Part shown: positions 4,409 through 40,432 of the stretch, one piece after another
Layout of the letters: the number at the start of each line of letters is the position of its first letter
Position numbering within the stretch: the stretch's first letter is position 1
Virus record (IMG/VR): IMGVR_UViG_3300020477_000048
Location: 1-46,639 of that record
Reading direction: 5' to 3' (one strand)
From: a virus
DNA length: 46,639 nucleotides
Position numbers and translations under genes: made by a program
The notes under the pieces: model-generated
The model's database searches: none
What the model was told of the DNA's origin: nothing
What the model saw: the letters and a program-made list of their open reading frames with translations, nothing else

Positions 4409-7400
4409 TGACTGAGACTACTACGTCTTCAGAAACATATAACGATCCACTAGTTTCACAAATACAGCAAACAGAAGCTGAACAAAATGTTGTTAGTTAT
4501 CAGCCTCCGGTAAGTGTATTTAATCCTAGTAGTGAAACAGAGCCTATGTCTACTAATTTTGCTGCTGATGATGCATTTAATAAATCTCTGTTTACTCATG
4601 GTACATCTGATTTCCAAACTACTTATGCAAAAAATATAGAAACTGGAACTGTTTTTGATGAGGTATCAACCTTGTTTAAAGACTCATCAGTTGCTGCTAT
4701 GGTTGAGGATTTTATTTTTAAGCCCGACTATACTATGAAAGAAAAGAAAGATTATGTTTTTCATATGTATAATAAACATGCTAGCTGGAGGGAATTAACT
4801 CCGTGGACAGCTTTTCTATATACTTTATTTTCTCAGCCCTATCTTGAAGATGCATCAGGAAATAAAATTCCAACAGAAACGATACCCATTGAAAAAGCAC
4901 GTATCTTATATAGACAACTAACGCCGGAACAGGTAAATGCTTTTGTTTTTAATATACGTTTTCAACTTACCCAACAAGCTAGGGATATATCCAATGATTT
5001 CATTGCTAACAAAGGATGGGCTGATGGTTCACCTATAGAAACATTTGCAGACATGGGGTTAGATGTACTTATACAAGATTTTACACCCTTTGCTAATATT
5101 ATATCCCGTGTTGGGCTAGCTAAAGAAATGGCTGCTTTAAGTGATACTAAAATAAATTGGTATAACATCCTCCCCGGATCAATAGGGGCAGCTATCAGAG
5201 AAAACTTAGTTGCTATGTCTCCACAAGAACAAAGAGATACAATAGAGTATATGTCAAAGGAGTTGAATAAAGCATTAAAGAGTCCAACATATGGCCCTGC
5301 TATGACTAGATATAATCTAGTAGAACAATGGTCATCTGTCTTCAATGATGAAGTACTGATGCAAGGAGATCCTAAAGATACAGTAGATGAGTGGGCAAGA
5401 AATATTGAAGCTGTATTAGACGGATTCCTCTATTCTTTTATCCTAGCAAAGATGGCTTTAAAAACTTCTATAAAAGGTTTAATGTATATTGGAGATCATG
5501 TAGAAGCTCTTAAAGTAGCACGACATTCACATAATGGTGAGGCTGTTCAGGCATTAACTCAAATGCTAAAGAATGATGATGTAGCAGGGAAGTTTGGAAT
5601 TGAAATTGAGGATACAGTTTTTGCAGGGATTGTAAAACCAAAAGTAAAAGAAATTGTTGACAGTATTCCATTCTTACCAGAAGATTTTAGAGAAGTTGCA
5701 ACGCACCATAAGAAAGAACTGTACAAACTTGCTAACGATGCAACAGTCAGAGTGCAAATGCAATTAACTGACTCGTCAATAAAAAAAGCAATCCTTGATC
5801 GTCTTAAAATTGTTGAAGAAGCTTCTTCTTATGGTTCTGTATGGTCAAAAATGTCAACTATTAAACTAAATGAGTTAGGAGGCGGTGTAGAAATTACAGC
5901 TACTATAGGAAAGACAGATACAAAACCATTTGACTCTCTTTCGGAAGCAGCAGAAGTTGCATTAGAACTCGATCCCGGCTTAGACTACTTTACAATTGCT
6001 AAACTAAATGATGCTGGAGTACTAGAACCATTAACACTAAACTCTAAGCAACTAAATGATTATTTAAAAGGTACTGTTAAACCCCAGATGATTAGTGGGA
6101 TGAATCCTAGTACCAGTAAAGTTACTCAACCAAAATATTTTTTACAATACATAGATAACAGACCGTGGAATCCTATTGATGCTCATATGTTTACTCCAGA
6201 TTCAATATCACAGTCAATGTTTAGATTTTTATTTACTCCAAACTATAAGTTTGGGTCAGAATTTTTTAATCCTTTTTCGTTAGGATATAAGGATCAACAA
6301 AGAGCAGCCCGTTTATTAAAAGAATTAGCAGAACCTTGGGATGCATTAAAACCAGCAGATAAACAGCTTGTACAAAGTATGTTTGAAACTGCTGAAGAGT
6401 GGGGTAAAGCAAACAACCAAGTTATTCCTATTGAGGAACTAGCTACCAGATTTGGATTAGATGCAACTAGCGATCAAATAGTAGGCTTTGTAGCATTGCG
6501 TAATATGTATGATACAATGAATGAGATGCTTCAAATTCGGATATATAATGAATGGAAAGCTGCTAATTATAAAACAGCTCGTCCATTAAATAAAGAGATG
6601 GCTAGTTATAGCGGTAAAGTTTTTCCAGATGGTGAAGCTCCAGTAGGTAAGGCAAAAAGTAAACTGCCTAATGATAAAAATCAATACAAGCTTGAGGCAT
6701 TAGACCCTGAAACATTTACTCTTGTTCCATTAGATAAAACATTCGTTGATGATTTGTATGCCAATGGTGGAAAAATCATGGAGGTAGAAATACCTATTGA
6801 GCTAGGTAAAAAAGCTACTAAGAGTAGCTCTTATATTATACTAAAACCAGAAGTATACCGTATAGGAGACTTAACAAGAGCACCACTACATTATCAAGCT
6901 GGATACTCATTTCGATTCTACGATGATCCGTATTTTATTTTTAGAACTACTACCACATTAGTAAATGGGATACCAACGCTATCAAAACGAGCATATATGA
7001 CGGCAGCAACATCTCGATCTGCCGACAGGGCAGTACGTGAACTGCAAAATAATCTTGCTGACGGTACTTATACAAAAGAAAGAGCTAATGATCTCGCTCA
7101 AGTTGATAGTGACTTATATCAAAAGCAGGTCTTTCAAATGGAGGGGCGGCTGTTCTATGATAGTCGTATGCGTGATAGGCTTACAGATACAACAGGTAAT
7201 TTAGCTTCTATTGAAGACCCTGCCTTGGCTATTGAAAGAGGAATACAATTACTAGCTCGTGAGATATCTAATACTAATCCATTGGCAGCAGCTAAACGTG
7301 CATGGATGGGTACTTATGGAGAAAAAGCAAAACAAATACTACGTAGAGATGTTGATTTAGAAAAAGAACCACTCAATACTTTACAAAGTGCTTTAAAAGA

Positions 7401-18887: not shown

Positions 18888-20765
18888 CTATAACCAATAT
18901 ACTTCGTGTTCAATATCAAACATAAGAGGAACCTTAATATCAAAGGCTTCCCTTACATACTTTACTACATGATCCATTAACGCTCGTAGTTCCTCCTCTT
19001 TATTCTTTTCCCAATCCACAACTATACTATCATGTACAGTCATGCGTAGTTTTGCACTCGTCCCTGATAATATGCTATCCAATATAGATAGTGCAGTCAT
19101 AACAATATCCCCACCTGCAAATCCTTGTATGGGGTAGTTCTTAGTTTCTGTTGGCTTGAAGCTAAAGCTCCTGCCCTCTTTAACCTTGAGCCAGTACGGT
19201 GATTTACTCTCTGTAAATGTAAACTTCCTGCGACCATGTTCATGTGGTATCCACCAACAGGCTCTATTATATGATTCATTATCAATCCACCCATGTGGAT
19301 GAGAGTTAGCCTTTACTGCATCAAGCACCTCATCCTGCCACTTTCTAATTGTAGGGTACTTAACATAGAAAGCATCAATCAATTGTCTAATCAGATTGAT
19401 ATTCTGTCCGGTCTGTTCCGATAAACCTTTAGCTCCACCACCATACAGTACCCCAAAGTTTACATTCTTAACTAACTTGCGATCTTTCTTAGTCATATCA
19501 GCAGGTGTTTGCCAGCCAAATACTATCCGTCCTGTTTCAAAGTGTATGTCTTTACCTTGCAGTAAATCTCTCCGTAAATCAAGGCATCCTGATAGGGTAG
19601 CTGCACCTACAATCTCTAACTGTGCAAAGTCTATCTCATATAGCTCACCCTCTGTAGACTTAAAAAGCTCTCGTGCTTTTGGTGGGATATTCTGCCCATT
19701 AGGATTGGAGCTAGATAATCTACCAGTAGCAGTTGCAGTAGTATTTATCTTTGGGTGTACAGTGCCTCCTGTATCCTTTGCTTGCGTTAGAAATGGATTA
19801 CAATATGTTTCTAGTAGCTTTCGCTTATCCTTTGCTAACTTATAGTTAGATATAAGTGGATATTTTAACAGCTTATCTAATACACTTTGATTAATAGGAT
19901 AGCCTAGATGTAAATTAGGTACTATATCTTTCCATATTTTTTCTATAGAATCCTTATCTAATAAAGGCTGTTGGTTTAGTAGTAGCTTCCTCTTTGCCTT
20001 AGCTGATCCACCAATGCCATGCTCCGGTAAACCTGTCAGTATATAGGACATGGTACGTGGAGCCAATGGCTTGAAATCTTCTGGATCAACAGGCTTGTGA
20101 TCGTCCCACTCAACGGCTGCTAGTACCATATGTGATACTAATTCTGTATGAGAATCAATAGACGTAATTAAATCCTTAGCTAATGTCTTACATTTATCTA
20201 CATCTAAAGGTAGACCATTCACTTCCATCTTAGCCAATGGTAAAATGTAATCCATATCACGATCAGTATCTTGGTGTAAATGTATTTCCTTTAGTACTTT
20301 GACATCTGCTTCTAGATACTGTCTCAATTCGTGCACATCTATATCAGAGATATCTACACCTTGTGCTATGTATGCACCAAGGTCAATAGACTTCTCGAAC
20401 TCTATACCATAGGCATTAGCTGCATCTTCTAAGCTAATAAACTTAGTACTATGTCCAGATATTAAATACTCTGCTGTCATAGTGTCATAAAACTTAAGCT
20501 TATGCCAAGGAAAATCAGGGTACTCACGAACCAGATACTTTAAATCGAACTTTAAATTGTGTGCTACTAAAGTTATATCAGATGCAAATGACATTAGCTC
20601 AGACAATTCACGTACAAGAGGATCGAGATTGTTCGTTACTGTTATAGCATCACCTAGTAAATACCCACATAGTACTACTTCATTCTCCTTGTAGTGTGCT
20701 TCGGGACTATTGTCTGGGCCTCTAGCTGTAGTCTCTAGGTCTAGAAAGATTGTTATTTTTTCCAT
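18888..20765 (-). CDS. polA: Family A DNA polymerase with 3'-5' exonuclease
   Basis: 625 residues, T7/Pol I type without the 5' nuclease. Exonuclease motifs: FLDLETT (Asp9, Glu11), VAHNLKFDLKYL and YLEADVKVL. Polymerase motif A is EIDFAQLEIVGAA, motif B KNVNFGVLYGGG (the residue equivalent to E. coli 762 is Phe), and motif C VHDSIVVDW. Motif C is unusual: the usual His-Asp-Glu reads His578-Asp579-Ser580. The catalytic Asp is kept, so activity is expected. The start lies 13 bases inside the helicase gene end. Replicates the phage genome. Confidence 0.95.
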   Translation of the reverse strand: MEKITIFLDLETTARGPDNSPEAHYKENEVVLCGYLLGDAITVTNNLDPLVRELSELMSFASDITLVAHNLKFDLKYLVREYPDFPWHKLKFYDTMTAEYLISGHSTKFISLEDAANAYGIEFEKSIDLGAYIAQGVDISDIDVHELRQYLEADVKVLKEIHLHQDTDRDMDYILPLAKMEVNGLPLDVDKCKTLAKDLITSIDSHTELVSHMVLAAVEWDDHKPVDPEDFKPLAPRTMSYILTGLPEHGIGGSAKAKRKLLLNQQPLLDKDSIEKIWKDIVPNLHLGYPINQSVLDKLLKYPLISNYKLAKDKRKLLETYCNPFLTQAKDTGGTVHPKINTTATATGRLSSSNPNGQNIPPKARELFKSTEGELYEIDFAQLEIVGAATLSGCLDLRRDLLQGKDIHFETGRIVFGWQTPADMTKKDRKLVKNVNFGVLYGGGAKGLSEQTGQNINLIRQLIDAFYVKYPTIRKWQDEVLDAVKANSHPHGWIDNESYNRACWWIPHEHGRRKFTFTESKSPYWLKVKEGRSFSFKPTETKNYPIQGFAGGDIVMTALSILDSILSGTSAKLRMTVHDSIVVDWEKNKEEELRALMDHVVKYVREAFDIKVPLMFDIEHEVYWL

Positions 20766-22027
20766 CTTGAGTTCCCCGAAAATAATTTGGATTGGAATCT
20801 TCCAGTTGGTAAGTCAAAGCGTACCTCTGACATTAGATGTTTACATGTCAGATCACAGCATTTGGCTGGTGGTATCTTATTCTTAGCCACGTTAAAGAAA
20901 CGCACATCATCAGGCTCATCATGATCCTTACCTATCATAAGTAAGACATCAGCTTCGCCCTGAATGGCGGTCTTAGATTTATATAGCCTGTCTTGATGTA
21001 TATATTTAACTCCCTCTGCTGATGGGTCAGCTTGGGTTACTACATATACAGGGCCATAGTCTTGTGCGATCCTTCGCATTTCTTCTCCTAAAAATTGTAG
21101 CTTATCATGGTCTTCCATCTTACCCGATCCTTTTACTTTAAGTAAGACGTTTACCCCTATCAATCCGTAGTTACCTTTTTGTAATCTGTTACGAATACTA
21201 GCAACGGACATTTGTGTATCATGCTCAATGTCAAACCGTCTACCATCTAACCATACTTTAAACTCTCTATCATACTTCGCTGCATTTGTCATTAGTGTCC
21301 TATAATCTACACCTAATGCAGCAGATACTAACCGAGTGTATACTTTATCGGGAGCCTCCTCATTATTAAAGATGATAGCATCCTTACCATCGAGTTGTTC
21401 AAACATATGAGCTAATTCAGAACAGATAAAAGATGTGCCTCCTACCTCTGGTCGTTTACCAATAACTATTAAATCCCCCTGTCTTATGGGGCCAATAGCT
21501 TGGTTCAAGTCCTCACATCTCCAGTAGTATCCTTCATCATCCCTTGTGTGTTCTGATAAGTCTTCAAGCGACATGTTAACAAGCGTGTCAGTGCTTCCAT
21601 TCGTTGTCTCTGCATTGCTTATAATCTGTGTCGCTTGAGACATAAACTCATCAAGTTCCTTCTTACCTTCTTGTATATCCTGTACTAATACAGACAGTTC
21701 TTGCTTGGTTTTACTTTCTATCAGTGTACTAACAAACTCATCAGACACACCATCACTACGCTTTTGTTCTACATTAGTAACTATCTTACCATAGAACTCA
21801 TGCTCATCCGGTTTCATGTTAGGATACTTGTCTACCCTAAACCATAGGGTAAAGTCTGTATCTATTTCATTACTATTAGGATGCTTATCAAAGTATTCAC
21901 CGAACGCTTTGATTAGGTTCCAAGAATATTTGGTACATAATCCTTTGTTGATGTACTCGCTGTACATAGTATGGTTTTCTTTGGTACTAAGGAAGGCGAG
22001 TAGTTGTAAGTCAAGTGCATCCATCAT
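20753..22027 (-). CDS. DnaB-type replicative helicase with degenerate Walker motifs
   Basis: 424 residues with a RecA-like C-terminal half: QGDLIVIGKRPEVGGTSF at the P-loop position, AIIFNNEEAPDKVYTRL with the catalytic Glu region, and VYVVTQAD as the sensor strand. The P-loop reads KRPEVGGTS where RP..GKT is expected, so the Walker A Lys is Gly, and the Walker B strand reads LIGVNVLL with Asn where Asp is usual. I confirmed both on the bases. The N-terminal part is the usual helical linker domain. The start overlaps the primase stop in an ATGA junction after GGGGGAGG. Separate helicase and primase genes differ from the fused T7 gp4. Confidence 0.85.
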   Translation of the reverse strand: MMDALDLQLLAFLSTKENHTMYSEYINKGLCTKYSWNLIKAFGEYFDKHPNSNEIDTDFTLWFRVDKYPNMKPDEHEFYGKIVTNVEQKRSDGVSDEFVSTLIESKTKQELSVLVQDIQEGKKELDEFMSQATQIISNAETTNGSTDTLVNMSLEDLSEHTRDDEGYYWRCEDLNQAIGPIRQGDLIVIGKRPEVGGTSFICSELAHMFEQLDGKDAIIFNNEEAPDKVYTRLVSAALGVDYRTLMTNAAKYDREFKVWLDGRRFDIEHDTQMSVASIRNRLQKGNYGLIGVNVLLKVKGSGKMEDHDKLQFLGEEMRRIAQDYGPVYVVTQADPSAEGVKYIHQDRLYKSKTAIQGEADVLLMIGKDHDEPDDVRFFNVAKNKIPPAKCCDLTCKHLMSEVRFDLPTGRFQSKLFSGNSRWKK

Positions 22028-22899
22028 GTAGCCTCCCCCATACTTAATGTCCTTTGTATCTCCACAGTACTAATGTGTTTCGGTTCTTCAGTTCGTGTTA
22101 CCAAGTAAGTATCAAAGCCAAGTAACTGGCATACTGCTTGCATGTCTCTAGCTTTCTTCTTTACATGAGGGCTATCATTATCTAACCAAATGTATACTGG
22201 TTTATCATCAGGTAGCTGGCTCAATATTTCCGGCTTAATTTGTACACCATAATTACACACTACATTCATGGCGAGGAATGCGTCGGTGTATTTACAACGA
22301 TGAATAGATACAGCACTGATATAATCCTCAACCACTACTGTTCCCTTTGCGTCCTTGTGTCGAAGCAAACCACCTAACGGTACAGTCTCATCCTTTAAAT
22401 GAGTTATATATTTTGCTCCTTCATTTGTTAAAGGTCGTAGCTGATACCCATTGAGATCAACAAAGCTATGCTGCATAGTCCTAATAGGTGTATAGATAGC
22501 GTGTTCATCTGCTACATATTTAATACAGTAGTCCTCACACTCCCTCATTGACAAACCATTCTTCTGTCTCCATATAGTTACTTCAGCAGGAGAATGGCTA
22601 TCTATGAGTTCAGTGCATGGGTATGCAAACACCTTATCTGTTTCTGTTTTCTCTTTAGATACTCGTCCATGATAGGGTTTGAACCTGTCCTTAGCTGCTA
22701 TATACCTAGCAGCAGATTGCTGGCAATTATGACAATAACCTAATATCACTTGTGGTTTCTTGGTTATATATAATCTACGTCTTGTATCTGTACCAGCAGG
22801 ACAGTCATCATGGTTTATACGAATCGTTTCGTTCTCATTTAATTCATCTGAGTACTCATCTATAAACTTACGAATCATCTTGTCCTGTGTGTTTGTCAT
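22024..22899 (-). CDS. DNA primase (zinc ribbon plus Toprim)
   Basis: 291 residues. An N-terminal zinc-binding motif uses His30/Cys33 and Cys56-x2-Cys59 (GYCHNC). A Toprim core follows with VVVEDYISA (the Glu) and WLDNDSP (Asp-x-Asp). This is the architecture of the T7 gp4 primase half on its own. It makes RNA primers for the polymerase encoded downstream. The start at 22899 overlaps the previous gene by 32 bases; an ATG at 22878 with AGGA closer by is an alternative start. Confidence 0.88.
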   Translation of the reverse strand: MTNTQDKMIRKFIDEYSDELNENETIRINHDDCPAGTDTRRRLYITKKPQVILGYCHNCQQSAARYIAAKDRFKPYHGRVSKEKTETDKVFAYPCTELIDSHSPAEVTIWRQKNGLSMRECEDYCIKYVADEHAIYTPIRTMQHSFVDLNGYQLRPLTNEGAKYITHLKDETVPLGGLLRHKDAKGTVVVEDYISAVSIHRCKYTDAFLAMNVVCNYGVQIKPEILSQLPDDKPVYIWLDNDSPHVKKKARDMQAVCQLLGFDTYLVTRTEEPKHISTVEIQRTLSMGEAT

Positions 22900-28825: not shown

Positions 28826-28875
28826 TGTCACACGTAGCAGTTTCGTTTCATTCTGTCAACACTGTGTTTATATAC

Positions 28876-28903
28876 AGTATAAATGTGGATAAAATAGGGA
28901 CAA
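28876..28903 (-). promoter_or_regulatory. Sigma-70 promoter, leftward, for the 130-aa gene
   Basis: Minus strand TTGTCC (28903-28898), 16-base spacer, TATACT (28881-28876). The -10 has one mismatch to consensus and the -35 two. A perfect DnaA box fills most of the spacer. TTGACA just upstream, at 28916-28911 on the minus strand, is an alternative -35 for another start. Confidence 0.5.
28884..28892 (+). promoter_or_regulatory. Isolated DnaA box inside the leftward promoter
   Basis: TGTGGATAA is a perfect match to the DnaA box (TTATCCACA on the other strand). It sits between the -35 and -10 elements of the leftward promoter, about 1.7 kb from the DnaA-box cluster at 30562-30701. Confidence 0.6.
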
Positions 28904-28910
28904 AATGCTA

Positions 28911-28950
28911 TGTCAAGAAGTGTTAAGATTTGTCAAGAATTGTTAAGATG
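28911..28950. repeat. Four phased 10-bp repeats at the divergent promoter
   Basis: TGTCAAGAAG, TGTTAAGATT, TGTCAAGAAT and TGTTAAGATG follow each other without gaps: two near-identical 20-bp units, each made of two 10-bp halves of pattern TGTYAAGAWK. Spacing of one helical turn puts all copies on the same DNA face. Likely an operator for a cooperative regulator acting on both divergent transcripts. Confidence 0.75.
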
Positions 28951-28966
28951 ACTTTATTATTATAAC
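28930..28966 (+). promoter_or_regulatory. Candidate rightward early promoter
   Basis: TTGTTA (28940-28945) followed after 15 bases by TATAAC (28961-28966), or TTGTCA (28930-28935) with TATTAT (28955-28960) at 19 bases. Neither spacing is ideal, but the AT-rich block lies just before the first rightward gene and the -35 elements fall within the phased repeats. Confidence 0.38.
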
Positions 28967-29018
28967 AATGTCAGGCATAAGGGACACTCAATTAACGTAA
29001 CAACAAGGAGCAAGACAC

Positions 29019-29174
29019 ATGTACCAATTTGACGACAACGTAAACGACACAATGACGCTAGAAGCAGCACTAGAAATCGTAGAGAACAGAGAAGAAGGAA
29101 TAGGTGTTGATTATGACGCTGACCTCCCATTTGAAATAGCAGCACTTAATGCTGCACTGGATGCACAAGAATGA
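29019..29174 (+). CDS. 51-aa acidic protein, first gene of the small rightward operon
   Basis: ATG at 29019 follows AAGGAG by eight bases. The product begins MYQFDDNVNDTMTLEAALEI and is strongly acidic and helical. Its stop overlaps the next start as ATGA. Position right after the divergent promoter marks it as an early gene; small acidic early proteins often bind host enzymes, but no motif supports a specific role. Confidence 0.72.
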   Translation: MYQFDDNVNDTMTLEAALEIVENREEGIGVDYDADLPFEIAALNAALDAQE

Positions 29175-29545
29175 GTGCAACAGATGCTGAGCTTGTTGAG
29201 GCAATGAATCAGAATATGTGGCTAGGAATTGAAGGGACCATGTTCGGTGAAATTGCCCGCTATTACGCCGTGGATAAGGGTGCTGGAAAAACGGTCTACC
29301 GTGATCCAGAAACACCGGCAACAATCACGCTATCCGGTAGGCAATATGATGACGATGCTCTGGGAATGCTTGATGGCCCATTTCGGTATGTTGCATGGGA
29401 CTTGATCGACGGTACTCTACAACGCAAGATCAGTGCCAATATCCGACGACGAAAGAAGGGTACAAAGCGTCAACAAAAAGCAGCTAAAAGGGCTGCTGCA
29501 AAAGCACGAAAATTATTAGCTAAAAGTGGAGAGTTTGTACTATGA
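29171..29545 (+). CDS. Early protein with very basic C-terminal tail, 124 aa
   Basis: The N-terminal 85 residues are mixed and mildly acidic; the last 35 are packed with Lys, Arg and Ala (RRRKKGTKRQQKAAKRAAAK) like a histone-type tail. This suggests DNA or RNA binding. Four-base overlaps link it to both neighbours. Family not recognised. GC-richer than the late genes. Confidence 0.7.
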   Translation: MSATDAELVEAMNQNMWLGIEGTMFGEIARYYAVDKGAGKTVYRDPETPATITLSGRQYDDDALGMLDGPFRYVAWDLIDGTLQRKISANIRRRKKGTKRQQKAAKRAAAKARKLLAKSGEFVL

Positions 29546-29814
29546 AATTATTAATAGAAGTAGAGGGCATCGAGCAGCGCATCGATGAATTATTATATGA
29601 TTTAGTACGCGTAGATTGCACCGAAGGAGAGATCGACAAGTACGATTATGGCATGATTCCTGAGCCTCAATCGATGGTCATTTGGGATTTGATTTCCGAC
29701 GCTCAAGACAACATCCATCATGTCCGCAAAATTGTAGCTGCCACTCGTAGGCAGCTAGCCGCTGAAAAGCAGATATCTAAACTATGCACTGGGGCAAAGA
29801 AAAAGCTCGACTAG
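29542..29814 (+). CDS. Early helical protein, 90 aa
   Basis: Starts MKLLIEVEGIEQRIDELLYD with an acidic N-terminal helix, followed by a basic C-terminal helix (KIVAATRRQLAAEKQISKLC). Overlaps the upstream gene by four bases and is followed by a strong terminator 24 bases after the stop. Function unknown. Confidence 0.7.
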   Translation: MKLLIEVEGIEQRIDELLYDLVRVDCTEGEIDKYDYGMIPEPQSMVIWDLISDAQDNIHHVRKIVAATRRQLAAEKQISKLCTGAKKKLD

Positions 29815-29838
29815 ACACCCTTAGCATGCACCACTCAA

Positions 29839-29863
29839 GGGCCGCGACTGCGGCCCTTTTTTT
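29839..29863 (+). terminator. Intrinsic terminator
   Basis: GGGCCGC, loop GACT, GCGGCCC and seven T on the plus strand. Ends the 29019-29814 operon. Confidence 0.95.
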
Positions 29864-29926
29864 GACAACGCCATCATATGAGCTTATGGTGCTCGCACCA
29901 TTTAACTACATCAGGAGCGCTACAAC

Positions 29927-30115
29927 ATGGAAATTATTCGCATTCGAAAGAACCAATACAAAGAGTATGAAGTGCCGGCCCCGACACCTAAATCAATCTA
30001 TTACACCGACGATCTTGCTGACGCAATTGCAACAGCCAAAATGATGCATGGTGATGGCCCTACAGACCCCACCATTCAGGTCAAGGTTAGACACGGCAGT
30101 TATACGTCAGACTGA
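29927..30115 (+). CDS. Early protein, 62 aa
   Basis: ATG is preceded by AGGAG at nine bases. Product begins MEIIRIRKNQYKEYEVPAPT and has a short strand-helix-strand pattern. It is bracketed by two near-identical terminators, so it forms its own transcription unit or depends on read-through. No family recognised. Confidence 0.7.
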   Translation: MEIIRIRKNQYKEYEVPAPTPKSIYYTDDLADAIATAKMMHGDGPTDPTIQVKVRHGSYTSD

Positions 30116-30135
30116 CCCACTACAGCACCATCTAG

Positions 30136-30161
30136 GGGCCGCCTTGTGCGGCCCTTTTTTT
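30136..30161 (+). terminator. Intrinsic terminator, second copy of the GGGCCGC type
   Basis: GGGCCGC, loop CTTGT, GCGGCCC and seven T. The stem is identical to that at 29839-29863, suggesting duplication of a gene-terminator cassette or recombination between such cassettes. Confidence 0.95.
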
Positions 30162-30558
30162 GTCCAGCCCTTAACCCTGTATCCAGTCTTTAGAGATCGT
30201 CCCGTAGAAGCGCTCTAAAACGCTCCTTGGTCTGGTCTGGTAATCACTCGCGGCGTACGTTCTTTTAATGCTTCCGTGGCGGGCCAGATTTACGGGCCGG
30301 TGAATCCGTGTTTGTTTCCATAATGCCAAACAGATTTGGATTATGTACCAGACGGCCTGTACTGGACGATCAGGAGGCACCCTAAACAGTGACGGCCCTA
30401 TCCAGTATCCGGTGATCTGACGGCCTCTGACATTGGCCTATCACTATTATTAATGTGGTGGCTGTCATTTCTATTACCAGCTGGTTAAATATTGACCACT
30501 TGCTATCAAAATAGAAGCAACAAACAAATAGAATTCATCTAATAGAATCAATAACTTA
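30162..30558. other. Non-coding segment upstream of the DnaA-box cluster
   Basis: I see no supported gene here. The left part (30162-30430) is GC-richer than the rest of the non-coding region and contains three direct copies of GACGGCC at 30351, 30391 and 30419, plus a TGGTC triplet near 30228. From about 30440 it becomes AT-rich. The short repeats may be protein sites flanking the origin. Confidence 0.4.
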
Positions 30559-30561
30559 GAC

Positions 30562-30701
30562 TGTGGATAACTTCAATAATATTGGTAGTAAGCTGTGGAT
30601 TCCTTGTTAGTATCTTGTTAATTAGTGTTAATATCCTGTGCATAACTTGTTAACAACCTGTGGATAAACTTGTGCATAACTTGTGGATAAGTTGTGGATA
30701 A
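30562..30701 (+). other. DnaA-box cluster, probable replication origin
   Basis: Six perfect boxes of form TGTGSATAA, all in the same orientation, begin at 30562, 30637, 30659, 30671, 30682 and 30693, with a degenerate one at 30594. The last four start 12, 11 and 11 bases apart, about one helical turn. This matches how DnaA filaments form at bacterial origins. AT-rich sequence lies on both sides (30440-30560 and 30870-30940) and could be the unwinding element. The region is non-coding and sits between the early genes and the late promoter. Confidence 0.75.
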
Positions 30702-30720
30702 CTTTCGCTTCGGCGGCGGG

Positions 30721-30777
30721 CGTTCCGTGCTTGCACGAACGGCTTTAGCCGATCAATGGACGTATCGCTTTAGCGAT
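30721..30777. other. Three adjacent small hairpins next to the DnaA boxes
   Basis: CGTTCCGTGC/GCACGAACG with one bulge (30721-30741), GGC-TTTA-GCC (30741-30750) and ATCGC-TTTA-GCGAT (30764-30777). The last two share the loop TTTA. Could be single-strand initiation signals or primase sites in the origin. Confidence 0.55.
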
Positions 30778-30882
30778 CCTGCAATCGGTCTATAGGGGGA
30801 GGGGGTCACTACCCCTAGACCTTCCTTATAAAGCCACACTGAAATTATCTCGGAGAAATGTTGGGAAGCTTGGAAAATAATC

Positions 30883-30910
30883 AGAACTTTTCATAAAAAA
30901 TATTGTCTAA
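30883..30910 (+). promoter_or_regulatory. Sigma-E-type promoter for the late operon
   Basis: AGAACTT (30883-30889), 15 bases, then GTCTAA (30905-30910). The sigma-E consensus is GGAACTT and GTCTAA; seven of seven but one match at -35 and all six at -10, with the same spacing as the E. coli rpoE P2 promoter (from memory). It points rightward into the late genes starting at 31060, with a leader of about 145 bases. Confidence 0.65.
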
Positions 30911-30931
30911 TACCTTTAGAAGGTTTATAGT
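30903..30931 (+). promoter_or_regulatory. Overlapping sigma-70-like promoter candidate
   Basis: TTGTCT (30903-30908), 17 bases, TATAGT (30926-30931): four and five matches of six. It overlaps the sigma-E element and its -10 lies at the centre of the 20-bp palindrome, so host polymerase could use it unless a repressor is bound. Confidence 0.4.
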
Positions 30932-30940
30932 TATAAACCT
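30921..30940. promoter_or_regulatory. 20-bp palindrome at the late promoter (operator-like)
   Basis: AGGTTTATAGTTATAAACCT has perfect nine-base arms around GT. It covers the -10 of the sigma-70-like promoter and the expected start region of the sigma-E-like promoter. Size and symmetry fit a dimeric regulator site. Confidence 0.7.
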
Positions 30941-30946
30941 ACGTTA

Positions 30947-30977
30947 GGAGTCGTAGCCTCCCTAGAGGGTCGGCTCC
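30947..30977 (+). other. Structured RNA element in the late leader
   Basis: GGAGTCG pairs with CGGCTCC (one G-U pair), enclosing an inner CCTC-ccta-GAGG stem. It falls within the untranslated leader of the late transcript and may protect the 5' end. Confidence 0.55.
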
Positions 30978-31010
30978 GAATAACGTTACTAGTAAAAATG
31001 CATGGGGGTC

Positions 31011-31038
31011 TATCTGAAGAGTCAGATAAACTCTTTTT
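31011..31038 (+). other. Hairpin with T-run before the late genes
   Basis: TATCTGA, loop AGAG, TCAGATA, five bases, then five T. Weak AU-rich stem, so at best a pause or partial terminator in the leader, 22 bases before the first late start codon. Confidence 0.45.
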
Positions 31039-31059
31039 CGTATCTCAATTGGAGTATGT

Positions 31060-31659
31060 ATGGGCTTAGTACGTAAAGCAGATAAAAAGAATCCTCCGAC
31101 TTACCCCGTAGGGGTAAAACCGGATGCATCAATCGAGATGGACGGGAACCTTGGAGGTTTCGCCGCACTCAAGGACGATCAGGGGCGGTTCCGCACCCAG
31201 TCCTTATTCTGGGAGATGCGTAACCCTAAATTCCCGCCCGTCTTTACAACGAAGCGGTACGATCACGAAGGTTGCCTGTCAATGTACCAGAAGTACATGG
31301 ATATAGCTGATCCGACTGAGTACGAGGTAGCCATAAGGCTACTCGGCTCTTGGGATCACTGGAAAGCCTTGTGCTCTAGCAAATGGTTCGAGGAAATGGT
31401 ATCAGAGTGGCGAGAAGAGCTTAAGATACGTATGGACTCGGAAAGATACTGGGAGATGAAGAACGCCGCTGACAAACACGCAGGAACCCCCACAGGTATC
31501 CAAGCGACCAAGTGGCTTTCAGAAAGGTACGGAGAGAAACGTCCCGTCAAGCGGGGCCGTCCGTCTAAGGCTGAGAAAGCAGCAGCTCTCAAAGAAAAGA
31601 TTGAAGAAGATACTTACTTAACCGAAGACGCAAACATAATAGGACTAAAGACAGTATGA
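31060..31659 (+). CDS. terS: Small terminase subunit (putative)
   Basis: 199 residues. The C-terminal part has the GIQATKWLSERYG ... KRGRPSKAEKAA arrangement common in podoviral DNA-packaging small subunits, with an AT-hook-like KRGRPSK for DNA contact and a charged helical tail. First gene after the late leader, with GGAG before ATG. The large subunit lies 7 kb downstream behind the tail-spike genes. It would recognise phage DNA and regulate the large terminase. Moderately sure from motif style and position. Confidence 0.65.
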   Translation: MGLVRKADKKNPPTYPVGVKPDASIEMDGNLGGFAALKDDQGRFRTQSLFWEMRNPKFPPVFTTKRYDHEGCLSMYQKYMDIADPTEYEVAIRLLGSWDHWKALCSSKWFEEMVSEWREELKIRMDSERYWEMKNAADKHAGTPTGIQATKWLSERYGEKRPVKRGRPSKAEKAAALKEKIEEDTYLTEDANIIGLKTV

Positions 31660-31979
31660 CAAACATTAATCTACCAATATCCCAAGGTGGGGTACCTGTT
31701 CAGGTATTATCGTTTAAGGGCGATCCCACAAAGATCGCTGTAGCCAGCTCATCGGCTCGTGCAGCCTTGCCCACGGGGGCAGCTTCTGGCGATGTTATTC
31801 GTATAGGCAGTACAACAGACTGCTATATTGTATGGGGGTCATCAAGTATTGATGCTGACTCTAACGACCACATGTTTACATCTGGCGTAGAGTATATGAC
31901 AATTCCAGCAGGTGTTACACATTTAGCAGCTATAAGGGTCGCAGCAGACGGTGTACTTACTTTGTCCCTTATGGACTAA
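31656..31979 (+). CDS. Small structural protein, 107 aa
   Basis: Beta-rich and Ser/Ala/Gly-rich, with strands such as DCYIVWGSSSIDADS and EYMTIPAGVTHLAAIRV, the style of small phage head- or tail-associated beta-sandwich proteins. It overlaps the terminase gene by four bases (ATGA) and precedes the tail-spike gene. Role in the virion inferred from composition and place. Confidence 0.6.
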   Translation: MTNINLPISQGGVPVQVLSFKGDPTKIAVASSSARAALPTGAASGDVIRIGSTTDCYIVWGSSSIDADSNDHMFTSGVEYMTIPAGVTHLAAIRVAADGVLTLSLMD

Positions 31980-32004
31980 ACTTAAGACTTGCTGGAGAAC
32001 CAGA

Positions 32005-35000
32005 ATGGGTTCAGGTATATCAACAGCAGGAATGACTCTTGCTAATGTCTACGAGTATACCGATGAAGGTAATCCCATCGTTAGTAATGATGGGCCAGTA
32101 ATACAAACGACACCAGCTCCTGTCTTTACTGAGGGAACCGCCGCCTCATACGACCTTCTTCAACATGCTGTAGACCCTAACGGGGATACCCTGACCCTAG
32201 CCGTGTCAGGTGCACTTCCTCAAGGAATTTCACTGAGTGGAAATTCATTAGTCTATGACGGCGTAGAAGGCGCGACCAGCTCGGCGGGACATGTACTTAC
32301 CGCGACCGATCCGGGTGGTCTATCAGATAGTTCTAGCGCGTTCACTGTAACAGTAAATACTGTAACTGTAGAGACTACAACAGCAGTACCGAACTTGCAA
32401 AATGCTTGGGGCGGTATTCCAACAGCCGATATAGCTAATATCCACGATGAGACACATCCGTGGTATCTATGGGGCAGGACAGCAATGTTTGCTTCTGTGC
32501 AGATGCAAGGAGCATTTACAACAGGGTCTAATGAACGAACACCCTTTGTAGCAAACTGGACAGCACTACACAATGATAATCCGCTAAACCATCTTGTGCT
32601 GCACATGTTCCCTACGCATAACATTCCCGGTTCTAGAGTAAGGAAACGAGAGAAGTACAGCGCAATACAAGATTGGGCATTGTCTACTGACAATGTTGCT
32701 CGTAATGAAGTGGCATTAAGTCTAGATGGGTCACAGTCAGCCGTCTTTTATGGAAACGATACGACATCTTCGACATCTTCATCTAAACAAGCCGGCTGGA
32801 ATATTAATTTATATAGTGAAGCAGTACGAGACAAGTTCGCAGAACAGTCTTGTGACTTACTTACCGGAAGCAATAAAAGTGGGCATTACTCTTGGGCAGA
32901 TGGTGAAGGAGGTGATGTATCTTCTTTCATGCACATCCACCATGACGGATCAGATGTCATACAACCTAAAGGTAATGATGCTCTCTTAAAGAAATTTTCT
33001 ACTGGAACAATCGTTTCTATTCTGTCTCTTAATTCGCAACAGCCTATTGAAGTACGAATTAGTGACAAGCTTTCTATTAATGATGGAGAGATACCAACCT
33101 CTGGTTATGTACCAGCAGCTCGGGGATATAGTGGTAAAGACCCTACTAGTTACTTAGCCTTTGCAGACAAAGCACATCAATTCTGGGTTTTACCAGATGG
33201 TAACAGAGGGTTTATAGGATTCCATATTCTTGGTATTAAATTTAATACGGGAAGCTCAGGAAATAATACAGACTTATTTTTAAAGAAGCTTTCTAACCAA
33301 GCACACAGTACACAGTTCCATACACCAGCCGCTGGAGAACGCTACACTATTAATAGCGTTAGAGATTCAGAACGTTCAGCTACTGTAGATTACGATAGAG
33401 ATGGTATTAAAGAAGATAAGTTTAATGCCATGATGGATAACTGGGCTACTGGCTTTGACGGGTACTGGGATTTATTACGAGACAAGGTTAAAGCAATAAC
33501 TGGGCATGGTACAGGGCGTGGGTGTAATACTGGATCAGGTTCTTCAATAGTAAAAAGGAATCAGGGGCTAAAAAAGATACACGGACAGTACGAAAAGTTT
33601 GATTGGGTTCAAGCTGAAGGTATGAATGGTACTAGGGGTGCAGCCTTTGCAATTAAGTTTGATGAGGATGGTAACTACCCACACGAGTATGATGTATCAA
33701 GCTTTAAACCTAATGTAGGAATGCAGGATTTAAGCTTTCTATCATCCTTTATTGCTCCTCAGCCAACTACAACCTTTATGACAGGTAAACTGCGTAAGGT
33801 TATGTGTGAGTTTAAAGTCTGGGGAGATTCAGCAACAGTAAATACCCCAGCAATGTATGATTCATTAAATGATGTGGATGCTAGTTATCTACGCTTCTGT
33901 TGGGGAGTAACAAAAGTAGTCCCTAATATAGGATTCATGGCAGCTTTTGAAGCTAAGTCACCTTCTGGTGTAGGTGCTCATAACTATCCAATCGCTATTG
34001 AAGAATGCTTTATAGATTTAGATACAAACTATACAGCACCAGAACCAGTAGGAACATACTATCCTGAGCTAGGAAGAACTGGAGAAAATGGTTTCCGTAA
34101 AGGAAAATTTACTTTTAAAGCGGCAGATGCTGGACAGAAAATATATCTCAGGAGAATAGGCAACTGGTTACTTGCAATTAATTTTAGAGATGATAGTAGT
34201 TATACAACCTATGCACCATCACACTTAAATACAAGCACCTCATATACATCTAAAGATAAGATTAGTGCTGCTGCTTTTTCAAAGTTATATACCGATGGGG
34301 TATTAGCTGCTGGTGAAACATTACAGCATTTTAAGCCATCAACATATGTAAATGATAAAGTTACAACGTGGCTCAAAGAACAAACTGGATCAACGTGGGG
34401 AGATGGACATTACTATGGCCCTCGACAAGAACATCCAGCAGATAAAGATAATCGAGCTGGGTCTACATACTCATTAGCTACTGCTCCGTTTATAGCTAGA
34501 GACGATACAAAAAATGACGGGTCAATAGTAAATACAGATGCTGATTATATCCTTGGCCCGATTGAAGCAGTCATCTGGGAGATCAAACCTCCATCTGGAA
34601 GTGTAATTATAGAAGATGATACTCCTCCTGTTATTATAGACGATTCAGATATACAGTTTCCAGCGCAACATAATACCTTTGGTGGTTCTGTTCTTGGATA
34701 TAGTAAGTATCTATGGGATGATACGAAACCACATTTTATATATGGTAGACTTGCACAGTGGCTGCTAGCACAACAAACAGGTATGTTCGCAGATGATGAT
34801 AGACCAAACGAATGGATACAATTAAAAGAAGATAATCCATTACTGTTTGCAACAATGCACGGGGATTCTCTTATGGGTTGGTCTGCATATAGAAAAAAAG
34901 CCCATGTCGAACATAGCAGACCATATGACTTTGCTATAACAAAGGATTGGAAAGATGTATTATTACTAGAGGATGCTACCTCAAATGTACTTAATACAGT

Positions 35001-36765
35001 AGAAAGACCTGTATCTGCTGGTAGTGGCGGTCGCCAAATTGATATACATCTCCGAATAGCTAGTTCTACAATGCGGAGATATCTAACTAAGTTCTGGCAC
35101 GATCTCCTCACAGGAGGAGATAAAGTCTTATCAGAAGGAACAGATGTAGTTAGGACAGGCCCAGATATCTCAGACTTCTCAGGGCCATTCCATGATACAA
35201 CCTCTATATCACAATTACGAGGTAATCAAGAAATATATACAACTGTTCTTGCTCAGGGAACAGTTGATAGCCTTAGAAGTACCGTAGAAGAAGGTGATCC
35301 TAAAAGTGGAGCATATACAGCCGCTACAAAAGATTTACCAACTCATGCTAGAGTAGTTCGTATTGATTCGCAGCCCGGATCAGACTGTATTAATCAGGAT
35401 ATAATATTCTATGCCACATCCGCTAACGGTAATGACAATGATGGTAAGGGTTTCATTGGGTATGAGATTGAAGACTATGAAGCAGTAAGTGGTGGTAAAT
35501 CAGATATAACTTTAAAACTTATACGGACTGCTCATGATACACAATTAGTTACCCCATCATCTGGTATGCAGTATTGTATATTAAATACAGGTGGAAGTCT
35601 AGTTACTGCTACTGATTGGAGAGCTAACGGAACACAGTTAGGAAATACAGGAGCTGCACCATACTGGATTCCAGAATGGAAAGAATACTTTCAAGGGATT
35701 GATGACTTAATATATGATACTACAGGCCACCCCTCTGGTGTAGGCTGGAACGGAATGTCCAATGGTTTTGGTGTAAAAGAATCTGAGGGATGGACAACTC
35801 CTCATGATATGACAGAGATGAGTGACTATTGTATAGGAGAGAATGTCTCTAAATTCAGAATGAAGTACACACCAACTGGTACTCCAAATGAATACACAAT
35901 ATCTAGTGCTGATATAGAAACAAATATGAGGCTTTACCACTACGGAAGTACTTATAAAAGAGAACCTAGTGATTGGATGAAGCAGAAAGCACATGGAATT
36001 GCTTGCGAAACAATAATTGCGGTACAAGCAAATAATGCTTTACCTAGGTCAAGCGAAGTAGCTAATGAAGTATCTGCTAGTCTTGCACGTTTTCATTACG
36101 CAATTATGAAAACAGTGCCGGGAATTATCCCAAGCGCACTTACTAACGAGGGTGATCCACAACATCCATTCATACTAGAGGAGTGGTTCTTAGACTTCAC
36201 AACGAATTGGAAAACTCCAGACACACTAGGAACATATCGTGAAAACGATACAGCAATAAGTGCTGGTACTAGGGGGCCAAAGCATAGCTTTACAATGGCA
36301 ACAGCAGATTGGGGAACACATGGTTATGTAAGGCGGTACGGTAATACATTATGTATTATGAACTGTGCTCCCTTCAGTGCTTTCTCTGGTTACGGTACTG
36401 TATATAATCCTAGTCACCTGACAAATACATATACACCACATACGTTTACAACATCGGATCAAGCAGCACTCCGACCATCAGGTGGAGGTAGTCTCTTAAC
36501 AGAAGGTGAGAGTTTACGTAGATATGATTTTGATACATATTATAATGATAGGATTACACAGTACTTAAGAACACATAGTTCTTCATGGACGAGCGCACAT
36601 AGATATGGCCCCAACCAGCCTTCGCCTTTTGATTACTCTGTATATAGTGTATCTGGGCATCCTTTTATTCTTCGTGATTCTATTTTGAATACAGGAGCTA
36701 ATGTAAGTACGACTGATACTATACTGCTTGGCCCACATGAAGCAATCTTTTTGGAGATATATTAA
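32005..36765 (+). CDS. Large tail-spike/fibre protein with internal tandem duplication
   Basis: 1586 residues from ATG 32005, which has GGAG seven bases upstream; an earlier in-frame ATG overlaps the previous gene. Residues about 37-117 form a cadherin/He_PIG-like Ig domain (AVDPNGDTLTLAVSGALP). Then come two long homologous halves, about 130-860 and 881-1586: both begin with a YLWG/FIYGR-type segment (HPWYLWGRTA, KPHFIYGRLA), share WTALHNDNPL/WIQLKEDNPL, YNDKVTTWL/YYNDRITQYL and end in ILGPIEAVIWEI/LLGPHEAIFLEI. Duplicated halves suggest a host-range protein evolving by copy and divergence. Adhesion function is inferred. Confidence 0.75.
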   Translation: MGSGISTAGMTLANVYEYTDEGNPIVSNDGPVIQTTPAPVFTEGTAASYDLLQHAVDPNGDTLTLAVSGALPQGISLSGNSLVYDGVEGATSSAGHVLTATDPGGLSDSSSAFTVTVNTVTVETTTAVPNLQNAWGGIPTADIANIHDETHPWYLWGRTAMFASVQMQGAFTTGSNERTPFVANWTALHNDNPLNHLVLHMFPTHNIPGSRVRKREKYSAIQDWALSTDNVARNEVALSLDGSQSAVFYGNDTTSSTSSSKQAGWNINLYSEAVRDKFAEQSCDLLTGSNKSGHYSWADGEGGDVSSFMHIHHDGSDVIQPKGNDALLKKFSTGTIVSILSLNSQQPIEVRISDKLSINDGEIPTSGYVPAARGYSGKDPTSYLAFADKAHQFWVLPDGNRGFIGFHILGIKFNTGSSGNNTDLFLKKLSNQAHSTQFHTPAAGERYTINSVRDSERSATVDYDRDGIKEDKFNAMMDNWATGFDGYWDLLRDKVKAITGHGTGRGCNTGSGSSIVKRNQGLKKIHGQYEKFDWVQAEGMNGTRGAAFAIKFDEDGNYPHEYDVSSFKPNVGMQDLSFLSSFIAPQPTTTFMTGKLRKVMCEFKVWGDSATVNTPAMYDSLNDVDASYLRFCWGVTKVVPNIGFMAAFEAKSPSGVGAHNYPIAIEECFIDLDTNYTAPEPVGTYYPELGRTGENGFRKGKFTFKAADAGQKIYLRRIGNWLLAINFRDDSSYTTYAPSHLNTSTSYTSKDKISAAAFSKLYTDGVLAAGETLQHFKPSTYVNDKVTTWLKEQTGSTWGDGHYYGPRQEHPADKDNRAGSTYSLATAPFIARDDTKNDGSIVNTDADYILGPIEAVIWEIKPPSGSVIIEDDTPPVIIDDSDIQFPAQHNTFGGSVLGYSKYLWDDTKPHFIYGRLAQWLLAQQTGMFADDDRPNEWIQLKEDNPLLFATMHGDSLMGWSAYRKKAHVEHSRPYDFAITKDWKDVLLLEDATSNVLNTVERPVSAGSGGRQIDIHLRIASSTMRRYLTKFWHDLLTGGDKVLSEGTDVVRTGPDISDFSGPFHDTTSISQLRGNQEIYTTVLAQGTVDSLRSTVEEGDPKSGAYTAATKDLPTHARVVRIDSQPGSDCINQDIIFYATSANGNDNDGKGFIGYEIEDYEAVSGGKSDITLKLIRTAHDTQLVTPSSGMQYCILNTGGSLVTATDWRANGTQLGNTGAAPYWIPEWKEYFQGIDDLIYDTTGHPSGVGWNGMSNGFGVKESEGWTTPHDMTEMSDYCIGENVSKFRMKYTPTGTPNEYTISSADIETNMRLYHYGSTYKREPSDWMKQKAHGIACETIIAVQANNALPRSSEVANEVSASLARFHYAIMKTVPGIIPSALTNEGDPQHPFILEEWFLDFTTNWKTPDTLGTYRENDTAISAGTRGPKHSFTMATADWGTHGYVRRYGNTLCIMNCAPFSAFSGYGTVYNPSHLTNTYTPHTFTTSDQAALRPSGGGSLLTEGESLRRYDFDTYYNDRITQYLRTHSSSWTSAHRYGPNQPSPFDYSVYSVSGHPFILRDSILNTGANVSTTDTILLGPHEAIFLEIY

Positions 36766-38899: not shown

Positions 38900-40432
38900 A
38901 TGGCGACTAAAGACCAGATCAGGCAAGCTGCTGAAGACGATCTCTTAACTTTTATCAGACTAGTAGCACCCCATAGGGTACTTGGTAAGTGTCACGAAGA
39001 CTTGATTAAGTGGTGGACACGGGAAGATGCATCAGATCATCAGATGTGTCTTCTTCCACGAGATCACCAGAAGAGCACAATGATAGCGTATCGGGCTGCT
39101 TGGGAGATAACCAGAAACCCAGCAACTACAATATTATATATAAGTGCTACATCAAGTCTAGCAGAAAAGCAGTTGTTCTTTATCAAGGATGTATTAACAT
39201 CTGCCAGATATAGAAGGTACTGGCCTGAGATGGTTAACCTTGATGAAGGTAAACGTAAACGATGGACTAACTCAGAGATCATGGTAGACCATCCTAAACG
39301 TGAGGCAGAAGGAGTACGTGATCCAACAGTATTTACAGCAGGACTGACAACATCTATTACAGGAATGCATTGTAACATAGCAATCCTAGATGACGTAGTG
39401 GTAAATGAGAATGCTTACACACGCGATGGTAGGGACAAGGTTGAGAAACAGTATTCGCTCCTAGCTAGTATTGAAACAACTGATTCGCAAGAGTGGATTG
39501 TTGGAACCAGATACCACCCTAAAGATTTGTATGGTACTCTTATTCAAATTACACAGGACATAGTAGATGAACAAGGCGAAGTTTTGGAATCCAAACCCGT
39601 ATATGAAGTATGGCAAAAGGAAGTTGAAGGAGTTGGCGATGGTGCTGGTGAGTACCTATGGCCTCGAATGCAACGAGGAGATGGTCGATGGTTTGGTTTC
39701 AACGCTCAAATACTTGCGCAAAAACGTGCGAAGTATCTTGATCGAACCCAGTTCTATGCTCAGTACTATAACAACCCTAACGATCCGGGCGAGGAAGCAA
39801 TTTCGTCAGAACATTTCCAATACTATAATAGGGAATTTCTCACCCAGACGGGGGGTAAGTGGTTCTATAATGGTAGACAACTTAATGTTTTTGCTTCAAT
39901 AGACTTTGCTTTTAGTGTTAAGACACGAGCTGACTATACAGCTCTTGTTGTAGCTGGTATAGATGTAGACGGTTACATATATGTTCTTGATATAAAACGA
40001 ACAAAGACCAACAAGATAGCAGACTACTTCGACATGATATTACAATCCCATATGAAGTGGGGATTCAAACGAATGCGAGCAGAGGTAGTTGGAGGGCAAG
40101 CTGTCATTGCTCAACATATTAAAGATGAAATACGTAGAGAGGGTTTAGCATTAATTGTTGAAGATTATCGACCAACAAGAACTATGGGTTCTAAAGAAGA
40201 ACGTATACATGCTACACTAAAACCACGTTATGAAAACCAAACAATCTACCACTACTCTGGTGGTTTATGCGAAGACCTAGAACAAGAGTTAGTTATGTAT
40301 AACCCACCTAACGATGACATTAAAGATGCCTTTGAATCAGTAGTAGGCATTCTTCGACCACCCCAAGCTCGGAGTTTGTATCGAAGAGAAAAGAATGTGA
40401 TAACCCATGCTAGATTTGGAGGAGTATTATAA
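38900..40432 (+). CDS. terL: Terminase large subunit (ATPase-nuclease)
   Basis: 510 residues. ATPase: variant P-loop LLPRDHQKST (residues 51-60), ILYISAT strand, and Walker B IAILDDVV. Nuclease: FASIDFAFS with the first catalytic Asp, ADYTALVVAG, and later acidic residues near DIKDAFESV. This is the packaging motor and headful or site-specific cutter. It shares one base with the portal start (TAATG), as expected for coordinated motor-portal assembly. Confidence 0.93.
   Translation: MATKDQIRQAAEDDLLTFIRLVAPHRVLGKCHEDLIKWWTREDASDHQMCLLPRDHQKSTMIAYRAAWEITRNPATTILYISATSSLAEKQLFFIKDVLTSARYRRYWPEMVNLDEGKRKRWTNSEIMVDHPKREAEGVRDPTVFTAGLTTSITGMHCNIAILDDVVVNENAYTRDGRDKVEKQYSLLASIETTDSQEWIVGTRYHPKDLYGTLIQITQDIVDEQGEVLESKPVYEVWQKEVEGVGDGAGEYLWPRMQRGDGRWFGFNAQILAQKRAKYLDRTQFYAQYYNNPNDPGEEAISSEHFQYYNREFLTQTGGKWFYNGRQLNVFASIDFAFSVKTRADYTALVVAGIDVDGYIYVLDIKRTKTNKIADYFDMILQSHMKWGFKRMRAEVVGGQAVIAQHIKDEIRREGLALIVEDYRPTRTMGSKEERIHATLKPRYENQTIYHYSGGLCEDLEQELVMYNPPNDDIKDAFESVVGILRPPQARSLYRREKNVITHARFGGVL

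Follow-up and report, generated by a model that had tools for sequence, protein, structure and literature searches.

Chromosomes and plasmids offer many familiar examples of origins built on DnaA boxes. In Escherichia coli oriC, exact R1-type boxes and same-orientation strong and weak boxes approximately 11 bp apart are accompanied by an IHF consensus, and unstable DNA is located 5' of the TGTGGATAA boxes. In P1 oriR and other replicons in which DnaA assists a Rep protein, DnaA boxes adjoin AT-rich DNA and the host initiator is recruited, the boxes being paired with Rep-protein iterons. With regard to phages, an injection stop signal with DnaA boxes has been proposed for T5 (PMC13250531). T5 is a siphovirus in which repeats and DnaA boxes are found near the genome end and DNA is transferred in two steps. 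This was the sole mention of DnaA boxes at phage ends in the literature that we searched, and a role of DnaA in T5 is as hypothetical as it is here. Members of the Cobavirinae (ICBM1, SIO1, and P12053L) have divergent arms with a terminal repeat with a G-rich end at the junction, but carry repeats other than DnaA-box clusters there. No account of how replication starts in the Zobellviridae, a family without a T7-type RNA polymerase, was found in the literature searched.

The window, that is, the whole stretch of viral DNA that we analyzed (46,639 nucleotides; IMG/VR record IMGVR_UViG_3300020477_000048), harbors genes for a ribonucleotide reductase, a family A polymerase, a DnaB-like helicase, a primase, CobS/CobT-like proteins, an ECF-like sigma factor, a terminase, and a portal protein (Table 1). 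The phage primase, helicase, and PolA named in a preliminary description of this DNA are thus all encoded. The two ends of the record overlap by 414 bp, and as the overlap falls inside structural genes, we take it to be one of circular assembly, with the physical ends of the genome situated elsewhere; the overlap fits with the record being a complete genome assembled as a circle. The ORF map and the assigned functions place the replication genes on one of two oppositely transcribed arms and the structural genes on the other. The best matches of TerL are proteins of Roseobacter and Lentibacter cobaviruses and other Zobellviridae (approximately 50 to 58% identity), the portal and capsid proteins are 45 to 53% and 33 to 56% identical to those of Zobellviridae members, and the tail appendage is also homologous. 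Judged from these proteins, the genome is that of a Zobellviridae/cobavirus-like phage related to Cobavirinae in terminase, portal, and capsid, and the label "T7-group" that it had been given applies only in the wide sense of a T7 supergroup, not to T7 proper. A tblastn search with the RNA polymerase of phage A7 as the query found no match to a T7-type RNA polymerase in the window; the positive controls P483 (99%) and BD5 (31%) both gave strong matches. SIO1 has likewise been described as lacking an RNA polymerase (PMC6775973). Together with the affiliation to the Zobellviridae, this makes the expectation that T7-type phages prime replication by transcription the wrong baseline for this genome. 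The virus is of the lytic type, and no tyrosine integrase was detected in the window. The ORF at 31951 to 36765 (1,604 amino acids), without a PHROGs match and with a weak Ig-like match at its N terminus only, probably encodes a tail fiber.

Table 1. Coordinates of the array and of the surrounding and related features in the window
Feature	Position	Strand	Remark
Family A (PolA-type) DNA polymerase	18888..20765	-	
DnaB-like replicative helicase	20753..22027	-	
DNA primase	22024..22899	-	
Isolated exact DnaA box	28884..28892	+	Between divergent genes
Intrinsic terminator	30134..30156	+	Closes small plus-strand genes before the array
AT-rich stretch of low helical stability (candidate unwinding element)	30485..30635	.	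Overlaps the 5' half of the array
Exact IHF consensus, WATCAANNNNTTR (AATCAATAACTTA)	30546..30558	+	Stops 3 bp short of the first box
DnaA-box array	30562..30701	+	Six exact TGTGSATAA boxes and phased near-boxes
Near-boxes	30583 TGGTAGTAA, 30594 TGTGGATTC, 30605 TGTTAGTAT, 30616 TGTTAATTA, 30626 TGTTAATAT, 30648 TGTTAACAA		
Hairpin-forming GC-rich stretch	30702..30821	.	G-run element GGGGGAGGGGG (30795-30805) at its end; proposed site of the physical genome end
Conserved leader	30831..31059	+	Approximately 94% identity in L011; strong hairpins
Promoter-like TTGTCT-N17-TATAGT	30903-30931	+	Inside the leader
First gene of the late arm, phrog_8035	31060..31659	+	
Terminase large subunit	38900..40432	+	Approximately 48 to 58% identity to Zobellviridae

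The array is located in a 944-base noncoding stretch (30116 to 31059) that fills the gap between 30115 and 31060, and no ORF of 60 amino acids or more runs over it. Six exact TGTGSATAA boxes, all on the plus strand, start at 30562, 30637, 30659, 30671, 30682, and 30693, and the last four are spaced by 12, 11, and 11 bp. The number, common orientation, close spacing, and noncoding position of the boxes agree with the preliminary description, and the array proved to be longer than had been claimed. Near-boxes hold a step of 11 +/- 1 bp, resulting in a chain of approximately 13 units from 30562 to 30701. When the exact boxes were kept fixed and only the intervening DNA was shuffled, the chain score was matched in 0.12% of 5,000 trials (P = 0.0012). 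Position 5 of the exact boxes is G in some and C in others, and the repeat units vary outside the box. Counting boxes against shuffled sequence, as had been proposed, gave 9 exact boxes in the whole window versus 1.32 expected, a number reached in 0 of 100 shuffles, and 6 boxes in the densest 250-bp cluster, where none of 40 Markov shuffles gave more than 1. These counts, along with the reversed-pattern control described below, reject chance clustering. Contamination with host DNA was also dismissed, as the neighbors of the array in the window are phage genes and the array-bearing viral loci lack dnaA. Direct capture of a host oriC was likewise set aside: a scan of species genomes, for exact matches only, found no identical copy of a 33-base segment of the array.

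The AT-rich DNA that had been noted beside the boxes consists of the array itself and its 5' side. At a scale of 150 bp, the candidate unwinding element ranks within the lowest 0.2% of the genome for stability (0.2 to 0.4% for the flank), and several places rank lower still. The isolated exact box at 28884 is a second candidate site; the 100 bp around it (28869 to 28968) are also among the least stable in the genome. The window shares with E. coli oriC the R1-type exact boxes, the strong and weak boxes in one orientation at steps of approximately 11 bp, the IHF consensus, and unstable DNA 5' of the boxes. It differs from oriC in belonging to a phage, in having no dnaA/oriC gene neighborhood, and in that its exact boxes are tighter and more numerous. 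Its similarity to P1 oriR and related replicons lies in boxes next to AT-rich DNA and a candidate recruitment of the host initiator; no Rep initiator gene adjoining the array was recognized with Pfam or PHROGs. The small genes at 29171 to 30044 matched no Pfam or PHROGs family, and the gene at 31060 to 31659 matched phrog_8035 only. Since homologs of the latter adjoin terL in ICP2 and other phages, its product is probably the small terminase subunit. Cumulative GC skew has its minimum at 28,862, and because this coincides with the switch of the gene strand, it was not used as evidence for an origin.

A close relative (contig L009/L011), whose helicase and 31060-31659 protein are 98% and 99% identical to those of the window, allows the array to be compared with its surroundings. 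The DNA of L011 is homologous to the window over approximately 30830 to 31060 and at the terminator (near 30124 to 30167). Between the terminator and the leader, the two sequences are unalignable, and blastn gives essentially only matches of box against box. Exact boxes are nevertheless present in L011, starting at 4648, 4665, and 4710, with TGGGGATAA, TGTGAATAA, and TGTTAGTTT in phase between 4665 and 4710, at spacings of 12, 11, 11, and 11 bp; the chain score was reached in 0 of 5,000 shuffles. An IHF consensus, AATCAATAGCTTA, is found at 4572. By this comparison, the array is the part that has been retained in L011, through either rapid divergence or exchange of what surrounds it. Taken together with the exact boxes, the phased chain, the IHF consensus, and the unstable DNA, the persistence of boxes amid unalignable DNA makes it likely that the site binds host DnaA.

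The distribution of the array beyond this pair is patchy. Among more distant relatives, L016 has three exact boxes 11 to 12 bp apart and PQ867843 has two exact boxes 34 bp apart, in both cases at the divergent junction. A box cluster was found in none of eight reference genomes of the family (CRP-5, T5S1, ICP2, SIO1, P12053L, MEP401, ctOsX528, and GX1) and in none of 80 loci of terL relatives, many of which perhaps do not reach the junction, and it was missing from 12 of 13 longer relatives. As most relatives lack the array, a family-wide origin is ruled out. The junctions of ICBM1 and P12053L carry other repeats, of the TAGGTAACA type as judged by eye, and those of L275 and L010 carry hairpins. 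Perfect short hairpins (stem of 8 or more, loop of 3 to 6) occur at 0.99 per kb in L010 (IMGVR_UViG_3300010412_000024), at approximately 0.4 to 0.6 in L277, L281, and L275, and at 0.15 in the window, with 0.05 to 0.11 in shuffled sequence. A link between a phage sigma factor and the array was considered and found to be unsupported, as a sigma homolog is present in the record of L275, which has no array, and missing from that of L016.

To the 3' side of the array, the leader has a core, AATTATCTCGGAGAAAT, that is common to L275 and less exact in L010, and the DNA fold of 30920 to 31060 has a z of -5.5. The AATTATCTCGGAGAAAT block is a conserved element adjoining the inferred end of the genome. 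A tRNA-like sequence, recognized by eye, is present in the divergent junction of L275 (1715 to 1788), just before the homolog of the 31060-31659 gene.

The geometry of the array is not peculiar to this phage. A scan of 2.9 million viral contigs for three boxes at steps of 10 to 14 bp identified at least 120 loci, versus 1 viral match for the reversed control pattern. Among the 120 viral loci listed, 316 of the 323 close box pairs were 11 or 12 bp apart (179 at 11 bp, 137 at 12 bp, none at 10 bp, 3 at 13 bp, and 4 at 14 bp); these loci share kinship, and the counts are not test statistics. The spacing in bacterial arrays also peaks at 11 and 12 bp, and dnaA, dnaN, or rpmH was present in 50 of 118 bacterial array loci. 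From these spacings, the geometry of the viral arrays is that of real DnaA clusters. IHF sites near the viral arrays listed numbered 32, against 4.6 expected, the loci not being independent. A uniform order as in E. coli, with the unwinding element 5' of the boxes, was not found across viral arrays: AT content was higher on the 5' side in only 32 of 105 and was more often higher on the 3' side, opposite to the window and E. coli oriC. Tight DnaA-box arrays were seen in many unrelated phages, including Microviridae (single-stranded DNA), Lactococcus 949-type phages, and T5-like records.

The position of the array relative to the physical end of the genome can be estimated from ICBM1, which has an annotated direct terminal repeat of 172 bp located 252 bp upstream of its homolog of the 31060-31659 gene. 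The gene-facing end of this repeat is G rich (CTAGGGGCGGGAAGGGGGGTTAGGGGGTGGCC), and the repeat contains no DnaA boxes. Just before the conserved leader, the window has GGGGGAGGGGG and L011 has GGGGGTAGGGGAGGGGG at the matching place. Based on the position and the G-rich end of the ICBM1 repeat, we infer a terminal repeat at approximately 30.64 to 30.83 kb of the window, overlapping or abutting the array. The array is thus probably at or in a terminal repeat, with the physical genome end near the divergent junction.

Clusters of exact boxes are also found at the termini of short-tailed phages of the genera Berlinvirus (Shigella phage A7 and Escherichia phage P483) and Eapunavirus (phiEap-1). 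In phiEap-1 (KT321314), each copy of the 195-bp terminal repeat contains five exact boxes 21 to 30 bp apart, and in A7 (MK685668), four exact boxes lie inside the 177-bp terminal repeat. In P483, nasanit, and NJ2, the array has the terminase gene on one side and the early genes on the other, which is where T7-like phages have their terminal repeat. The Berlinvirus and Eapunavirus phages differ from that of the window in that they are Studiervirinae (T7-like) with a T7-type RNA polymerase, and in that the terminus in the window is a predicted one. Berlinvirus has a T7-like RNA polymerase and yet carries DnaA boxes in its terminal repeats, where a standard origin is unexpected, and the boxes of the T7-like Eapunavirus are also within terminal repeats. 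The boxes in the repeats of phiEap-1 (71 to 174) and A7 (22 to 135) overlap or adjoin CTTTAGG/CCTAAAG motifs, which we take to be the short repeat from the ends of T7 DNA. These cases raise the possibility, as yet a doubtful one, that DnaA-box arrays recur at the ends of short-tailed phages of the T7 supergroup, convergently acquired, with host DnaA acting on the termini; the proposed carriers are a subset of the Zobellviridae, Berlinvirus, Eapunavirus, and possibly Vibrio BD1/BD5. In the part of the literature that was searched, we found no precedent for a phased array located where a Zobellviridae-like genome is predicted to end, or for DnaA boxes that recur within terminal repeats among unrelated short-tailed phages.

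The sequence of the window itself displays the binding sites and how they are arranged, along with a candidate IHF site and unstable DNA; from these we infer DnaA binding, opening, loading, and initiation. The statement best supported by these features is that DnaA would bind as a filament, probably aided by IHF, and the array suggests that the virus borrows or captures the host protein. We propose that it is a cis site for host DnaA, placed where the divergent arms meet and where the genome probably has its physical end. Host IHF would bend the DNA at 30546, DnaA would nucleate on the exact boxes and then extend as a filament along the weak boxes phased at 11 bp, and the strain of the filament would open the adjoining AT-rich DNA. 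The phage DnaB-like helicase (or host DnaB), the primase, and the PolA-type polymerase would then load, so that DNA synthesis starts early in infection. With strong and weak boxes in phase, IHF, unstable DNA, a phage helicase, primase, and polymerase, and no recognized initiator, an origin would be the most economical use of the array. A DnaA-dependent start of phage replication at this site is therefore our leading reading, adopted tentatively. Of the host-DnaA-dependent origin put forward in the preliminary description, what is well supported is a host-DnaA-binding element with origin-like geometry: its boxes match the consensus exactly and are phased at 11 bp, an IHF site and unstable DNA accompany them, and L011 has retained such boxes. 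The absence of the array from most relatives counts against the remainder.

This patchy distribution, along with the boxes in T7-like terminal repeats, makes two other functions serious rivals. The array might serve as a datA-like sponge that, with a growing number of phage copies, deprives the host origin of DnaA, phage replication starting elsewhere; new rounds of host replication would then halt, freeing nucleotides and replisomes. Several perfect high-affinity boxes with an adjoining IHF site, which is also a feature of datA, would suit such a function, the sporadic distribution fits an accessory role, and boxes are present in unrelated lytic phages not known to need DnaA, such as Berlinvirus. 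We nevertheless consider it unlikely, as a sponge has no need of phased weak boxes or of a fixed position at a genome end or divergent junction, and six exact boxes per genome are a modest dose early in infection. Rather unlikely, too, is a function at the genome end itself, in which DnaA at the terminal repeat would control DNA entry (a role put forward for the T5 injection stop signal), protect the end, or prime the synthesis that duplicates the repeat during concatemer processing. The repeat of the window would overlap the array if placed as in ICBM1, and the boxes within the repeats of phiEap-1 and A7, those between the terminase and early genes of P483, nasanit, and NJ2, and the stop signal of T5 all point in this direction. 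On the other hand, the physical ends are putative and the contig breaks elsewhere, in structural genes; the ICBM1 repeat is free of DnaA boxes and SIO1 and P12053L are free of box clusters; and any mechanism that ties DnaA to ends would be hypothetical.

The two further explanations that we weighed are less probable. DnaA, a known transcription factor (PMC8203912), could regulate the late-arm promoter at 30903 to 30931 or act as a roadblock to transcription crossing the junction, and the promoter-like site is conserved in L011. This site is approximately 200 bp 3' of the array, its -35-like TTGTCT is retained in L275 and L010, both without boxes, and promoter matches are no more frequent in the region than in shuffles, all of which makes such a role quite improbable. 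Least probable is that the units are iterons for a phage-encoded protein that happen to resemble DnaA boxes, or the product of neutral repeat expansion. The junctions of relatives do usually hold repeats, but an exact R1-type consensus, with either G or C as its fifth base, recurs in unrelated phages at bacterial spacing, and the units vary outside the box while the boxes are retained amid unalignable surroundings.

The phased array at the inferred genome end provides a concrete candidate site for the start of replication in the Zobellviridae. As E. coli, Shigella, and Enterobacter phages also carry boxes within their terminal repeats, the question can be approached in laboratory hosts, with strains that are temperature sensitive for dnaA. 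If host DnaA does act at these termini, it may do so in the start of replication, in priming the duplication of the terminal repeat, or in gating the entry of DNA.
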